In this document: piece by piece, positions 19,991 to 25,003 of the stretch
Numbering within the stretch: the first letter of the stretch is position 1
How the letters are laid out: the number at the start of each line of letters is the position of its first letter
Source of the DNA: an uncultured Acetatifactor sp.
GTDB taxonomy: Bacteria; Bacillota; Clostridia; Lachnospirales; Lachnospiraceae
Assembly: GCA_944384205.1 (NCBI GenBank)
Contig: CALWSL010000015.1
Span: 1 to 64,000, forward strand
Direction of reading: 5' to 3'
Length of the DNA stretch: 64,000 nucleotides
Position numbers and translations under genes: made by a program
The notes under the pieces: model-generated
What the model was told of the DNA's origin: nothing
The model's database searches: none
Seen by the model: the letters and a program-made list of their open reading frames with translations, nothing else

Positions 19991-20572
19991 TCATCCCGGC
20001 TCCGAAATTCTTGTAACTCCTACATAAATGTCCGAAATGGCATACCAGGTGGGATAGTCGGTGATGCCCGTCTGGGGGAGATTAAATATTTTCTGAAAGG
20101 TACGGACCGCTTCGGCAGTGGCAGGACCATAGATACCGTCGGCAGTGACAGAGGGTATCGCAGGATAGTTGCGGGCGATGCGGTTTAGCTGGTTTTGCAG
20201 TTGAAGGACTTTCTCTCCGGAGGAACCGATTGTCAGTGCGTAGCCCGGATATGAGGAGGGCACACCTGAGATTACCTCCGCAGTGTTGATGTACATATCG
20301 TCCCCGTAAAAGTATCGGATAATTTCAATGGCGGAGTAGCCCTGTTGTGCAAGATACTGGGAACCCCACTGACTTAAACCGTCACAGGTCACACGGTTGC
20401 CGTCACAGTAAGAGGTAAAAATCGGCTGCCGTACGCCGGGTCTGGACAGATAATTTGCAAAAACAGTGTCTACCAGATAGTCGATATTTTCAAAGATATT
20501 TCGTCCGTACACCCATTTCTGATCATAGGCGGTGGATGAGGTAATGGTGAAATCATAACCCTGATTCCGGTA
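19991..20572 (-). CDS. sleC: sleC 3' segment (C-terminal 193 codons)
   Basis: This is the second part of the spore cortex-lytic enzyme. It begins inside the codon series TAC CGG AAT CAG (Y-R-N-Q) at 20572 and continues YDFTITSSTAYDQKW. The end of the SpoIID-like domain follows (TSYCDGNRVTCDGLSQWGSQ), then a peptidoglycan-binding domain (LTIGSSGEKVLQLQNQLN, DGIYGPATAEAVRTFQ). Upstream in-frame codons (20716-20573) are element sequence and show no SleC similarity. No start codon or ribosome site is found at the break, so alone it should not be translated into a working enzyme. Residues align in sequence and order with clostridial SleC as I recall it. Product requires joining to 24284-25003. Confidence 0.9.
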   Translation of the reverse strand, partial: YRNQGYDFTITSSTAYDQKWVYGRNIFENIDYLVDTVFANYLSRPGVRQPIFTSYCDGNRVTCDGLSQWGSQYLAQQGYSAIEIIRYFYGDDMYINTAEVISGVPSSYPGYALTIGSSGEKVLQLQNQLNRIARNYPAIPSVTADGIYGPATAEAVRTFQKIFNLPQTGITDYPTWYAISDIYVGVTRISEPG

Positions 20573-20601
20573 CCCCGGAATCACTCTTTTTTCATAATAA
20601 A
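20561..20601. other. Left recombination junction (sleC 3' / element)
   Basis: Read on the minus strand, element DNA ending TGATTCCGG meets the shared core GGTA (20574-20571) and then sleC codons CCGGAATCAG. The core and the following GGAATCA are repeated at the other junction (24288-24285 and on), with two mismatches between them. Confidence 0.85.
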
Positions 20602-20691
20602 ACAGAATATGGCATGTCCCCTCAGAATAGAATGTATTGGAACAGAATAGGAATATAAAAAGTGAGTTGACGAAAAACAGGAAGCAAAGAC

Positions 20692-20856
20692 GTGAGTGAA
20701 CGGAGCAAACTGTCAATCACAGTAGAATTTCCCATAGTATCGGACCTTGCGGCAAAAGCGGAATTTGTGGACAGATTAAAAGGTCTTTATATAAAAAAGC
20801 TGGAAGCCGGCATGGAAGAATACTCGGAGATAGAAGAAGGGGAAAATCATGAGTAA
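20692..20856 (+). CDS. 54-codon ORF overlapping the recombinase
   Basis: GTG 20692 has a well-spaced AGGAAG (20679-20684), and the frame ends at TAA 20854-20856, overlapping the recombinase start by 8 bp, which suggests translational coupling. The product begins MSERSKLSITVEF, is Glu/Lys-rich and lacks hydrophobic helices. I do not recognise a family. Position and size resemble small partner genes of large serine recombinases such as the SprB excision factor of SP-beta (58 residues), so an excision (directionality) factor is one reasonable guess. The coding status rests on the ribosome site, coupling and an open frame. Confidence 0.65.
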   Translation: MSERSKLSITVEFPIVSDLAAKAEFVDRLKGLYIKKLEAGMEEYSEIEEGENHE

Positions 20857-22477
20857 ACGGGTAAGAACATTGCTTCGGGTATCCTCCAGACAGCAGCTGC
20901 ATGATGACGATATCCCGGTGCAGAGAGCAGAGACGCTGCAGTACATAGAAAAACAGGCGGACTGGGTGTTTGATAAGGAGTATATTGAAAAAGCGGTATC
21001 CGCTTATAAAAACAGCGTGGAGGAACGGGAAATCCTTATGGAAATTTTGCAGGATGCCAAAAAGCAGGAGTTTGACATTCTGCTCACCTATATGTCGGAC
21101 CGCATCGGGCGGAAGGAAGAATACAGCACCTATGTCGCCACTCTGAACACGTTGGGGATTGAGGTCTGGACCATAAAGGACGGACAGCTAAAGACGGAGG
21201 AGCATATTGACAAGCTGCTGAATTTTATCCGGTTCTGGCAGAATGAAGGGGAAAGCAAGAAAACCAGCGCCAGAGTCAGGGATGCACAGCGGGAAATGGT
21301 AAAATCGGGAAAATTCGTGGGCGGCAAAGCGCCGTTCGGTTACAGATTAGTGCCCTCAGGAGAAGTCAGCAACCATGGACGGCTGCTAAAAAAGTTGGAA
21401 ATTGTTGAGGCGGATGCGGAAGTAGTGAAGAAAATATATTCCTATGCCATCCATCAGGGGATGGGTTATGAAAGAATTGCGCGTGCCCTCAATGAAAAGG
21501 GGATTCCGCCTATCAGCACAGACCGATGGAAGGGGTCCACCATTGCAGGCATTTTAAAAAATCCGGTTTATATGGGGTATTTTGCGGTAAACAGACGGGT
21601 GAACCATGGCAGCTTTACAAGACTGGACAGGACAAACTGGATTTATTCCAGATATCCCAATCCTGATATTGTGATTATATCGGAAGAGGACTGGGTTCGT
21701 GCGCAGGAGATACGGGAGGAACGAAAAAAGCGTCTGCAGGCTTCGAGACAGGAGAACCTTATAAAACAGGCGCAGCAGTCTCAGATTCCTTTCAGTACGA
21801 AAGGAGCGCTTGCATTAATCGGAATCGCCTATTGCGGATATTGTGGGAAGCCATTGAAAAACGGAAGCTACTGCAACAAATGGACGGTGAAATCCACAGG
21901 GGAAAAAAAGGTGTCATTCACAGGAAGATACCGTTGTCCTAATCAGTGTAGGGAGAGATATGTCTATTCAGGGAAAACTCTGGAGGATGCTGTATTTCAG
22001 GCAGTGGAAAAATATCTGGAGATGATAAAAGGAATCGATGTGACTGAGGAATGGCGAAAGAGACAGATACAGCACAGAATGAGGATGGAAAGGCAACTGC
22101 AGGCAGTTGAGCGGGAAATCCGGATGATGGAGTTGGATATGGAGACATTGGAGGGCAAAATACCGGAGGCAATACGCGGAGACTATTGTTTCAGTGCGGA
22201 AAAACTTTCCTGTCTTCTTAAGGAAAAAGCGGAAATACTTAGCCAAAAGAGGGACGAGGAAAAACGCATCAGAGAGAACCTGAGAAATACGGTATCGCAG
22301 AATGGTAAAATGGCAAATCGATTTGGTGTGCCGCCTGACTGGGGACAGGAGTTTGGCGAGGCAGACACAGAGACAAAGCGTATGCTGTTATCATCTCTGA
22401 TAGAGAGGATAGAGGTAAGGGACAGCGCCGTAAACATAAAATTCCGGTTCCGCATGGAGGAGCTTACAGAGAGCTGA
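20849..22477 (+). CDS. Large serine recombinase
   Basis: 542 residues. The resolvase catalytic domain begins RVRTLLRVSSRQQ with the nucleophile probably S12, and ends near residue 140. A recombinase domain (GGKAPFGYRLVPSG, ILKNPVYMGYF) spans about 155-270. A zinc ribbon has C329-x2-C332 and a second Cys pair in RCPNQCRER, followed by a coiled coil (about 395-480). Such enzymes join attP to attB alone and need a partner protein for the reverse reaction. ATG 20849 has AGAAGGGG upstream. The gene lies within the element and points opposite to the host gene, as spoIVCA does in some skin elements. Confidence 0.95.
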   Translation: MSKRVRTLLRVSSRQQLHDDDIPVQRAETLQYIEKQADWVFDKEYIEKAVSAYKNSVEEREILMEILQDAKKQEFDILLTYMSDRIGRKEEYSTYVATLNTLGIEVWTIKDGQLKTEEHIDKLLNFIRFWQNEGESKKTSARVRDAQREMVKSGKFVGGKAPFGYRLVPSGEVSNHGRLLKKLEIVEADAEVVKKIYSYAIHQGMGYERIARALNEKGIPPISTDRWKGSTIAGILKNPVYMGYFAVNRRVNHGSFTRLDRTNWIYSRYPNPDIVIISEEDWVRAQEIREERKKRLQASRQENLIKQAQQSQIPFSTKGALALIGIAYCGYCGKPLKNGSYCNKWTVKSTGEKKVSFTGRYRCPNQCRERYVYSGKTLEDAVFQAVEKYLEMIKGIDVTEEWRKRQIQHRMRMERQLQAVEREIRMMELDMETLEGKIPEAIRGDYCFSAEKLSCLLKEKAEILSQKRDEEKRIRENLRNTVSQNGKMANRFGVPPDWGQEFGEADTETKRMLLSSLIERIEVRDSAVNIKFRFRMEELTES

Positions 22478-22506
22478 GCGGATGTGCTGAGCGTTTCAGC
22501 TGTTAA

Positions 22507-22536
22507 TTGACATGCACAATGACAGTGTTATATAAT
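22507..22536 (+). promoter_or_regulatory. Consensus sigma-A promoter of the gtrII-like gene
   Basis: TTGACA (22507-22512), 18-bp spacer, TATAAT (22531-22536); 45 bp before the ATG. This suggests expression in growing cells, separate from the recombinase. Confidence 0.75.
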
Positions 22537-22580
22537 ATATCGAAACATGGGGAAACGGATGTACAAAAAAGGAGAGAAGA

Positions 22581-24257
22581 ATGGCACAGGAAATCTTCGC
22601 TGAAGTTAAGGCAATGTGGAAAAGAAGATATTTTGCGGTGGCGCTGCCGTTTGTGGCAGTCATAAGCTTTTGCACCTTGCTGATAAATCCCACAGTGGGA
22701 ATCGATGATACGGCATTTGACATGTATTTTGAACAGGGAGTTGCACCGGCGGCGGGACGTTGGTGTCTTTTTTTGATTAACAGAATATTTGCCCTGGCGT
22801 ATAATCCCTACTTTATGGAAGCTGTGGGACTGGCTTTATTCTGTGTCTCTGTCAGTTTGTGGTGTGTTGTGTTTTACAGGGTGTACGGTTCCAAAATACC
22901 GGATTGGGGCTATTTGCTGTTCGGCTGCGTGATGATTTCCAGTCCCATTACCTCGGAGGTCATAGTTTACTATCTTCACAACGGAATTTTTCTGGCTTAC
23001 GGCATGTGTGCGCTGGCAGTGCTCATAGGAATGCAGTTATTTCGGACAGATTGCAGTTATCGCCGGACACAAAAATTAAAATATCTGCTTCTGTCAGCTT
23101 TGTGCCTGACCGTTGCGCTGGGATGCTATGAATCCTTTATGATTGTATTTTTGATGGGATGCTTAATGGTTTATCTGTCGGTCCGGATTACAGGAGAGAA
23201 AAAGTATTGCGAAAAAACAATACCCTGGATGTTATATATTGTATTGACTGCGGTCTGTGCGCTTTTGTTCAGAACGCTGATTGTGAATGCGATGATTGCA
23301 GGATTCGGATTACAGGAGGAGACTAAGGTTTTAAATTCCAGAGGGCTTCACGAATTTCTCGGATGGTTTGACGGTACCAGAAGCTTTTCCGATTTTATCT
23401 ACGTGATGAAGGACTTTTTTGTAAAATTTTACATAAACGGCGCCGTGTATGTTCCGATAACGATTCTGGTGCTTGCAATCGGCATTTTGCTTTTGTTTGC
23501 GATCGGACTTGCCGTGAAAAAGAAGGACGGACTGATAGCAGCGGCGGCGGCAGGCATTGTTTTGCTGCCGTGGCTGATGCCTGTGCTGGAGGGGAGCGCT
23601 ACCTATTATCGTTCCTGTCAGTATATACCGCTGTTAACGGCGTTTGCCGTGCTGTTGGCTGGCAGGTATGTGGCTTTGGCAACTTCCGGGGCGGCAGCCC
23701 GCAGGAGAAAGCTTATCAGATACACGGCGGCTTTTCTGGCAGGGGTTCTGCTTTATGCTCAGGCATATGAAATGAATCGGTGGCTCTATCTGGATGCTTT
23801 GAAATATGAGGATACACAAAAGACACTGGATGCCATTGCCTATGCGATACAGCAGTGTGAGAATCCCGGGAAGCCTGTGTGTATCGTGGGAACGTATGAG
23901 GTACCCCAAAGCCTTGCAGAATGGGCAATCTGCCCCTCCTGGTCAAAGAAATATGCGATTGTGGAAGTTCTGGTAAAGAATCTGGATGAGGATATTTGGG
24001 ACAAGTATTGTACGGATACGGGATATGTGTTTGCGGAAACCCCCGAACTGTCTTTTTTGAGATGGGGAGCAACTGCCTTTTATGGATTTGACAGACAGAT
24101 TATTAAGTTTTGGGAAATGCACGGGTATACCTTTACGGAGGATAACAATCTGGCGCACTATGTGGAGGCAAGAGAGGAAATGAAGGACGGACCGGTGTTC
24201 CCCAAGGAGGGTTCGGTTGTGGAAAAGGAAGATTATATTATTGTGAATCTGGGATGA
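22581..24257 (+). CDS. GtrII-like glycosyltransferase membrane protein
   Basis: 558 residues with about eleven hydrophobic helices. The first outside loop carries IDDTAFD (41-47) and GRW (59-61), and a C-terminal soluble part begins near 430. The D-D and G-R-W pattern with this topology is that of the GtrII/GT-C family, in which phage-borne members add glucose to surface polysaccharide and change serotype. Ribosome site AAAGGAGAG precedes ATG 22581. It is cargo of the sleC element, ending 27 bp before the right junction. The acceptor is unknown: a teichoic acid, capsule or spore-surface glycan is possible. It could be a related DUF6056-type membrane protein instead. Confidence 0.72.
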   Translation: MAQEIFAEVKAMWKRRYFAVALPFVAVISFCTLLINPTVGIDDTAFDMYFEQGVAPAAGRWCLFLINRIFALAYNPYFMEAVGLALFCVSVSLWCVVFYRVYGSKIPDWGYLLFGCVMISSPITSEVIVYYLHNGIFLAYGMCALAVLIGMQLFRTDCSYRRTQKLKYLLLSALCLTVALGCYESFMIVFLMGCLMVYLSVRITGEKKYCEKTIPWMLYIVLTAVCALLFRTLIVNAMIAGFGLQEETKVLNSRGLHEFLGWFDGTRSFSDFIYVMKDFFVKFYINGAVYVPITILVLAIGILLLFAIGLAVKKKDGLIAAAAAGIVLLPWLMPVLEGSATYYRSCQYIPLLTAFAVLLAGRYVALATSGAAARRRKLIRYTAAFLAGVLLYAQAYEMNRWLYLDALKYEDTQKTLDAIAYAIQQCENPGKPVCIVGTYEVPQSLAEWAICPSWSKKYAIVEVLVKNLDEDIWDKYCTDTGYVFAETPELSFLRWGATAFYGFDRQIIKFWEMHGYTFTEDNNLAHYVEAREEMKDGPVFPKEGSVVEKEDYIIVNLG

Positions 24258-24264
24258 TGTGATA

Positions 24265-24300
24265 CGGAAAACTATTGATTCCTCTACCACTCCGTATATA
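24265..24300. other. Right recombination junction (element / sleC 5')
   Basis: On the minus strand sleC codons ACG GAG TGG run into the shared core GGTA (24288-24285), then element bases GAGGAATCAATAG. The element supplies the TAG stop that ends the 5' fragment one codon after the crossover. Confidence 0.85.
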
Positions 24301-25003
24301 CCCTGTTTAATGTAAAGGACATAATTACCAGAATATTTGCATAAAGAGCGCTCTCTTCCCAGGTGGAGTATATCTCGCAGGAAGCTACATTTTTGATATA
24401 ATCCTTATAGCGCACCCAATAGTTCGTCGCAGTGGGGTCGCTCGGTACTCCGTCATGTACAACGACGTATTCCGGGATTACCACACGGCTCAATACAATT
24501 TCACCGGTTTCCGGCATGGGTTTGATTTCTGCCTCCGGTATTTTAGGAGGGAAATTGCCGAAGAGGGTATGGGCGGGAATAATAACGATTTTTTCCGCTT
24601 CTTTTGTGGTATCAATCGGGTTCATACGGATGGGCTGCAGGGAAAGCTCACCGGCAAAAATTTCTGAGCCTGATACCAACACAGGCTCGTAGTCCGGTGC
24701 CGTAACAAAAATGTTGTATTCGGAATAGGGCTGCTGCTCGGTGTCCGGACTTAAGGAGAGAGCCAGCGGCGGTGCGGGAAGCTCAATAACAGGCGTCTGA
24801 CCAGAGCTGTCGGTGATTAATGTCTCGATAGGAGAATCCGGGTCGCCGGTATAGGATATGACAACGGTGGCATTTGCCACCGGGATAAGACCTATAGTGG
24901 ATACCACGCTGATTTTCAGTTCACCGGCATAGGCGGCGTCAATGGGTTCCGGCTGCTGCCCGGATTCCTGCGCCGCATGTAAATCAAAAGTAAAATCTGA
25001 CAT
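24284..25003 (-). CDS. sleC: sleC 5' segment (N-terminal 239 codons)
   Basis: This is the first part of the pre-pro cortex-lytic enzyme SleC, which degrades cortex peptidoglycan during germination after Csp-type proteases remove the pro-region. An N-terminal beta-sandwich-like pro-domain (TIGLIPVANATVVISYTG) leads to AHTLFGNFPPKIPEAEIKP, then VVIPEYVVVHDGVPSD at about 174, where mature SleC starts in relatives. The SpoIID-like catalytic domain has probable catalytic E210 in VASCEIYSTW. The frame stops at TAG right after NRVYTEW; relatives continue W-Y-R-N, as does the segment at 20572. Complete joined product is 432 residues, close to clostridial SleC (420-440). Confidence 0.92.
   Translation of the reverse strand: MSDFTFDLHAAQESGQQPEPIDAAYAGELKISVVSTIGLIPVANATVVISYTGDPDSPIETLITDSSGQTPVIELPAPPLALSLSPDTEQQPYSEYNIFVTAPDYEPVLVSGSEIFAGELSLQPIRMNPIDTTKEAEKIVIIPAHTLFGNFPPKIPEAEIKPMPETGEIVLSRVVIPEYVVVHDGVPSDPTATNYWVRYKDYIKNVASCEIYSTWEESALYANILVIMSFTLNRVYTEW

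Follow-up and report, generated by a model that had tools for sequence, protein, structure and literature searches.

The sporulation genes described as interrupted in the available text of the sources consulted are sigK, spsM, spoVFB, spoVR, and yabG (PMC10747680, PMC5025042, PMC4191935, and the review PMC8987985). In the skin element of Clostridioides difficile, as far as the accessible part of the report goes, the large serine recombinase CD1231 acts on sigK, and a small second protein, the recombination directionality factor (RDF) CD1234, gives the reaction its direction, its gene being under the control of sigma-E and SpoIIID (PMC5025042). For SP-beta, which lies in spsM of Bacillus subtilis (SprA, SprB), the available portion of the study states that the recombinase and a 58-aa accessory protein are enough for the sporulation excision of a minimised SP-beta (PMC4191935). 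The present work concerns an element inserted in sleC, a germination gene encoding the spore cortex-lytic enzyme, in an uncultured Acetatifactor sp. of the Lachnospiraceae. The window, i.e., the whole stretch of DNA analysed, comprises 64,000 nucleotides (positions 1 to 64,000 of contig CALWSL010000015.1, assembly GCA_944384205.1). No report of an element in sleC was found in the literature searched, whose partly available text lacked many subscription papers and all bioRxiv preprints.

An element with its own recombinase interrupts sleC

In the window, sleC is present as two parts on the minus strand, separated by an intervening element of 3,714 bp (20573..24286, no strand assigned). The 5' half (24284..25003, minus strand) comprises 239 codons, ends in ...NRVYTEW with TGG as its last codon, and then runs into a stop made with element sequence; the 3' half (19991..20572, minus strand) comprises 193 codons from TAC (YRNQGYDF...) plus the stop. 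When the halves were searched apart against the PDB, the N-terminal (N) half matched residues 61-282 (E 1.8e-52) and the C-terminal (C) half residues 283-474 (E 2.3e-65) of 9h68_A ('Spore cortex-lytic enzyme pre-pro-form'), so that both align along the solved SleC chain and their match ends adjoin at 282|283. The C half has a PG_binding_1 domain, together with a SpoIID_LytB match that is short and below the cut-off.

The attachment joint on the 5' side of sleC (24276..24289, minus strand) reads TGG|TAG, its element arm GGAATCA (24282-24276) forming half of an inverted repeat around GT, and the joint on the 3' side (20570..20583, minus strand) reads GGGG|TAC, with the element arm TGATTCC (20583-20577). 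Both joints have GGTA in common, and precise excision would restore the frame of this sporulation/germination gene exactly, the combined halves amounting to 432 codons (239 + 193) split at TGG|TAC. In-frame restoration alone is weak proof, because any precise serine-recombinase insertion reverses without loss. In intact loci of the same genus, the halves abut at the window joint in 29 of the 29 fetched (28 as 239|2, one as 238 plus one codon). Among 36 other same-genus genomes, a canonical sleC, unsplit in every case and with an open frame 417-551 aa long, is present in 32; three gave no match, and one gave only a remote match. The abutting congeners and the abutting 9h68_A matches rule out a chance origin of the joint, and the split of sleC in the window is real. 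No second SleC N-half match was found in the window genome, which rules out another intact SleC there; the other PG_binding_1 match in this genome is, by eye, an endolysin-like ORF. The exact joint and the shared GGTA read in the initial annotation were thus borne out, and both the uninterrupted sleC in relatives and the lack of another intact copy are as that reading anticipated.

The element carries its own site-specific recombinase, a large serine recombinase of 542 aa (20849..22477, plus strand) with Resolvase and Recombinase domains, which agrees with what had been read between the halves. The RVSS and DRIGR motifs, which we take to be the catalytic Ser and Arg motifs, are kept, and the enzyme, a member of the sleC-site clade described below, is apparently intact. 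Its start is overlapped by a small partner ORF of 54 aa (20692..20856, plus strand), a candidate RDF whose core V-x-V-x-F-P ... R-L-K is common to the partners in other elements; its structure model, a single helix (mean pLDDT 78, pTM 0.39), was uninformative. A sigma-E-like promoter motif, GAATAGA-N13-GAATAGGAATATAA with an imperfect -10, lies at 20624..20658 (plus strand). The sole cargo is a GtrII-like membrane protein of 558 aa (22581..24257, plus strand; PF14264, E 1.4e-23). The cargo scans gave no PHROG match for it, and prophage content was therefore rejected for the window element. The joint of the window circle gave 0 exact matches in viral contigs.

Elements at the same sleC codon occur in many genomes

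A scan of genome_contigs with the recombinase alignment gave 340 relatives, the best 80 of which were kept, corresponding to 78 loci (two assemblies gave two each). A sleC half is found at the joint in 77 of these best 78 loci, and the one without (L119) is ended by the contig end; the same site is thus occupied elsewhere, as the initial annotation had proposed to check. The loci are labelled Lachnospiraceae (63), without family (10), or another group (5). A search of 397 family genomes gave 14 with a recombinase relative (E 1e-60 or better). In 12 of them, the window included, the relative adjoins a sleC half that breaks off at this same codon; in the other two (L045, L046), none was seen within the stretch examined. 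In the genus of the window, a recombinase of this type was found in 11 of 121 genomes (E 1e-90), and each of the ten carriers other than the window shows a sleC half at the joint. In at least nine loci (L056, L057, L059, L060, L068, L075, L084, L087, and L091), the gene interrupted at the homologous codon is a sleC paralogue with N-half identity of 31-37%.

Searches starting from sleC point the same way. The N half has matches in 260 of 396 genomes, and among the 150 matches listed, 19 have open frames no longer than 350 aa, one of which (G136) is only a contig end, while 18, window included, look split. Among these listed matches, 11 fit the site of the window element (site 1) and seven break only at a second site. 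Six of the site-1 cases have both halves and a recombinase (window, G409, G164, G379, G485, and G481), three have the N half with a recombinase and the C half on another stretch or contig (G092, G424, and G470), and two (G375 and G509) have an N half that breaks off at the joint and showed no recombinase.

In protein trees, which were quick and came with long-branch warnings, the 72 non-redundant site-1 recombinases fall on one side of one branch (SH-aLRT 99), opposite 12 outgroup and four site-2 rows. The near-identical L051, L052, L084, L110, L122, and L124 were left out of motif and partner counts, and these plus L119 out of the trees. Among class-level recombinase relatives, sleC was absent within up to 1.5 kb on each side at 14 of 14 loci outside the window genome. 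The window genome itself holds a remote recombinase relative (L139, G000:C31:10409-11485) with one in-frame TAA over the matched stretch. Judged from these comparisons, sleC intervening elements are a real and widespread family.

The right joints read G|TAC or G|TAT in 55 of 55 elements and the left joints TGG|T in 59 of 60 (the exception, L058, has TTC|T), so that the crossover dinucleotide is probably GT. The element ends form partial inverted repeats about GT, with a mean of 11.2 symmetric positions out of 20 (37 elements) versus 8.8 for the ends of different elements; in the window element, they are TGATTCC and GGAATCA. Element length ranges from 1.9 to 11.3 kb (median 3.8) in the 37 bounded members of the first set, and larger elements were also seen (L155, 18.1 kb; L158, 14.0 kb). 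The smallest, of 1.9 kb, consists of a small ORF and the recombinase, and in L057, L059, L060, and L075 there is, besides the recombinase, no ORF of 90 aa or more, just the small ORF. In 74 of 79 loci, the end of a short ORF lies close to the start of the recombinase, and the partner core was matched in 53 of the 68 non-redundant loci having a short ORF of at least 40 aa. The recombinase is oriented along sleC in 45 loci and opposite to it in 33. Two site-1 recombinases stand in tandem within one sleC in L047 (4966-17507, 11.3 kb).

Cargo differs from element to element. The cargo scan covered 61 of 99 ORFs from the 37 bounded elements of up to 11.3 kb, and the first 25 of 37 PHROG families were inspected; among these, the only virion-related ones were an Ig-domain structural family (2 ORFs) and endolysin families. 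DUF5722 was found in 7 of the 61 scanned ORFs, and some PADLOC models for candidate defence systems matched cargo ORFs. ORFs of about 550-580 aa recur as a size class (e.g., L064, L065, and L085). The prophage-like gene content that marks the described cases was thus not seen in elements of up to 11.3 kb, yet one clade member is phage-borne (see below).

Recent transfer, long retention, and selection on sleC

Two groups of loci show recent transfer between species: in L050/L051/L052, the recombinase pS is 0-0.05 versus 0.61-0.76 for the sleC N half, and in L120/L122/L124, it is up to 0.01 versus 0.73-0.85 for the C half. Three sister pairs, by comparison, have retained their elements, with recombinase dS of 0.92 (L065-L067), 0.90 (L061-L083), and 0.66 (L060-L075) and flanking genes at 0.39-1.21. 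The sleC halves of these three pairs give dN/dS values of 0.027-0.052 (Fisher p 1e-33 to 2e-37; only the C half for L061-L083, and a sleC paralogue in the case of L060-L075). Retention of the element through speciation, together with such dN/dS values, is hard to square with dead genes and favours precise excision on a regular basis. In a further pair, L069-L081, the signal is stronger still, the C half having accumulated 3 nonsynonymous versus 66 synonymous changes; the flanks of this pair (dS 0.89-1.04) are, however, older than the genes of its element (0.37-0.62), and a later exchange of the element is possible.

As aligned, 60 N and 55 C halves contain 0 in-frame stops. Since a severed C half would otherwise be expected to decay, these clean C halves suggest that the gene is regularly rejoined. 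In the window, the C half has diverged, relative to the N half, no more than in intact relatives (C/N divergence ratio 0.655, versus a median of 0.65). Over all pairs with 0.05<dS<1.5, the median dN/dS of N halves is 0.119 in split genes (36 pairs) versus 0.148 in intact ones (46 pairs). Matched sister pairs were preferred to such all-pairs values because the split set mixes many genera, distant pairs, and paralogues. Taken as a whole, these substitution patterns strongly indicate precise excision.

A second break in sleC and a phage-borne relative

The second break place in sleC is W-(M/L)-T|QWG. Ten loci are broken near it on the C-half side (L142, L143, L144, L146, L147, L149, L151, L152, L219, and L221), and L152 shows both sleC halves at this site with a 2.6-kb insert between them. 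Four site-2 recombinases form a separate clade (support 100), and where a recombinase was seen, it is unrelated to the site-1 clade. By eye, L142 and L146 look prophage-like. Both insertions occur within one sleC in L151/L111, and L092, L108, L117, L219, and L221 likewise show both breaks. In L144 and L149, the broken sleC is followed by genes that look metabolic by eye (flavin oxidoreductase; glycyl-radical enzyme and activase), which are perhaps large elements or rearrangements between attachment (att) sites.

Eight recombinase loci came from viral contigs, two of which (L219 and L221) have sleC halves and six have none within the stretch examined. In a tree with these proteins, the recombinase of L220 falls inside the site-1 clade, being 65% identical to that of L095, and that of L222 falls among the outgroups. 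L220 is a 13.6-kb part of a 68-kb IMG/VR phage contig, which carries pre-neck-appendage and tail-fibre families along with anaerobic ribonucleotide reductase and dUTPase. Within L220:5986-7711, an inverted repeat lying 42 bp past the recombinase stop is symmetric at 28 of 32 positions and centred on TGG|TA, the next best symmetry in the region being 19. It has the form expected of the free phage attachment site (attP) for the sleC site, and this predicted attP suggests that the recombinase lineage, which still passes from species to species, probably arose in phages.

Sigma-factor motifs and the timing of excision

Sigma-E and sigma-K promoters each have a consensus form, and sigma-E acts before sigma-K. 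Scores of generic sigma consensus forms upstream of the recombinase were no better than those of shuffles until spacing was looked at. In 42 clade-A upstream regions of the partner-recombinase operon, GAATA-N16-CATA occurred 18 times at spacing 16 versus 8 times at the other spacings from 8 to 25. A fitted matrix exceeded 9 bits in 30 of these 42 rows, on which it had itself been fitted, versus one of the 42 reverse strands and none of the 42 shuffles. When every row was scored with a matrix made without it and its near kin, 28 of 42 still passed 9 bits and 25 passed 15 (reverse strands, 1 and 0). In 17 of the 30 matches, the motif lies outside the partner-core open frame and is therefore conserved as DNA. 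The window motif scores 20.1 bits with the fitted matrix and 17.7 when it and its near kin are excluded. The spoIVA upstream regions of relatives show the same spacing (9 occurrences at 16 in 25 regions).

Before sleC, AC-N16-CATAnnnT was found in 21 and the N17 form in 13 of 51 upstream regions of split genes (reverse strand, 1 and 3), and in 9 and 6 of 29 regions of intact genes (reverse strand, 1 and 0), the pattern to be expected for sigma-K. The window genome has SpoIVA and SigK/SigE-like factors, its best SigK match (269 bits) lying below the curated 298.65, and SpoIVA is present in 23 of the 23 genomes checked with a split sleC or this type of recombinase beside a sleC half. According to the accessible part of the C. 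difficile study, spoIVA and sigK are among the sigma-E targets of that species and sleC is a sigma-K target (PMC5025042). Excision in the mother cell is the best reading of these motifs. The developmental nature of the element, as put forward in the initial annotation, gains indirect support from the sigma-E-like motifs before many recombinase operons and the sigma-K-like ones before many sleC genes.

Discussion

The element in the window is likely to be an intervening element of sleC, inserted precisely at a GT core, excised in the mother cell so as to rejoin the gene, and inherited via the forespore. A large serine recombinase would have inserted the element at the GT core inside the coding region. 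In the sporulating mother cell, a sigma-E-type promoter would drive the operon of partner and recombinase, the small partner would steer the recombinase to excision, and the element would depart as a circle, leaving sleC rejoined without a base gained or lost and ready for transcription by sigma-K; the forespore chromosome would retain the element and pass it on. With somewhat less assurance, an old, probably phage-born recombinase lineage may be taken to have settled in sleC across gut Lachnospiraceae, with elements reduced to as few as two genes that would behave like DNA-level self-removing introns tied to sporulation. A second, unrelated lineage would have settled at another sleC codon, so that some species would need two excisions per germination enzyme.

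Several results weigh against developmental excision. The clade-B motif is weaker (13 of 31 above 9 bits, 6 above 15), and 13 of the 30 clade-A matches lie in an open frame with the partner. In the single case of the window, the -10 reads AATA instead of CATA, and its sleC upstream region has no AC-N15-18-CATA match, just TCATATT-N14-CATATATATA by eye. Only 5 of 25 spoIVA upstream regions exceed 9 bits, as do 0 of 19 regions before the best sigK-like genes, despite the listing of sigK under sigma-E, and 3 of 14 control recombinases without sleC nearby (highest, 10.5). As regards the genes themselves, the median dN/dS of split C halves is 0.167 (36 pairs) versus 0.085 in intact congeners (103 pairs), the C-half match in L070 (6139-6459) ends at residue 108 with no known insertion, possibly through a frameshift or an assembly error, and the L084 recombinase is frameshifted. 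Three Hydrolase_2 (SleB/CwlJ-type) proteins in the window genome could leave sleC dispensable, and no sleC was found in the 13.6 kb of L220 examined.

A mobile element excised occasionally and without regulation, with sleC restored in part of the growing population and selection acting there, would dispense with any developmental programme. The recent interspecies spread of two recombinase groups, the variable cargo, and the clade member on a phage contig are all compatible with it, but a sigma-E-like motif precedes most clade-A operons and selection on sleC in the sister pairs is about as strong as on the flanking genes, and we regard this explanation as rather improbable. Plain insertional inactivation, the alternative already named in the initial annotation, would leave sleC dead and the spores either relying on SleB/CwlJ-type hydrolases or germinating poorly. 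Such hydrolases are indeed encoded in the window genome, the enzyme is split near its middle, and the raised median of the split C halves agrees with decay. This alternative is nevertheless contradicted by three sister pairs that keep the element and whose sleC halves are under purifying selection, and also by the stop-free halves, the unrelaxed C half of the window, and the retention of SpoIVA in every genome checked; it is accordingly very unlikely. Even less credible is the production of the two halves as separate, cooperating polypeptides without DNA excision. The C half does lie within a longer mechanically called frame with a TTG start, but the split falls inside one solved chain, the sequence before the C half varies between elements with no common start seen by eye, and the recombinase clade and the att symmetry would be left unexplained.

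If developmental excision is true, programmed DNA excision in spore formers would be an arrangement that recurs, and is inherited, within a major gut family, as the 18 split-looking genes among the 150 sleC matches listed would indicate, rather than a few prophage accidents. Germination competence would hinge on a recombination event, and the elements would be a natural source of two-gene recombinase systems whose att sites are defined and which probably include directionality factors. Why sporulation genes draw such elements would become testable across many independent cases.

Among known systems, the sleC element would belong with intervening elements of the skin and SP-beta kind. As with skin, the recombinase is of the large serine type and interrupts a mother-cell sporulation gene, and the candidate RDF would be the counterpart of the small directing protein; the target differs, being here sleC, which the accessible text on C. 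difficile places under sigma-K (PMC5025042), the small ORF and recombinase are adjacent and overlapping, and the bounded elements scanned are not prophage-like. In the PDB, the window recombinase has matches to YokA chains (E 3e-6), YokA being presumably SprA; SP-beta differs in being an active prophage, whereas the smallest natural sleC elements consist of a small ORF and a recombinase alone. The elements vfbin (spoVFB), vrin (spoVR), and yin (yabG) are likewise recombinase elements in sporulation genes that are restored by excision, and the available text describes them as prophage-like, yin from one strain. In sleC, by contrast, one recombinase clade keeps to one codon across dozens of species.

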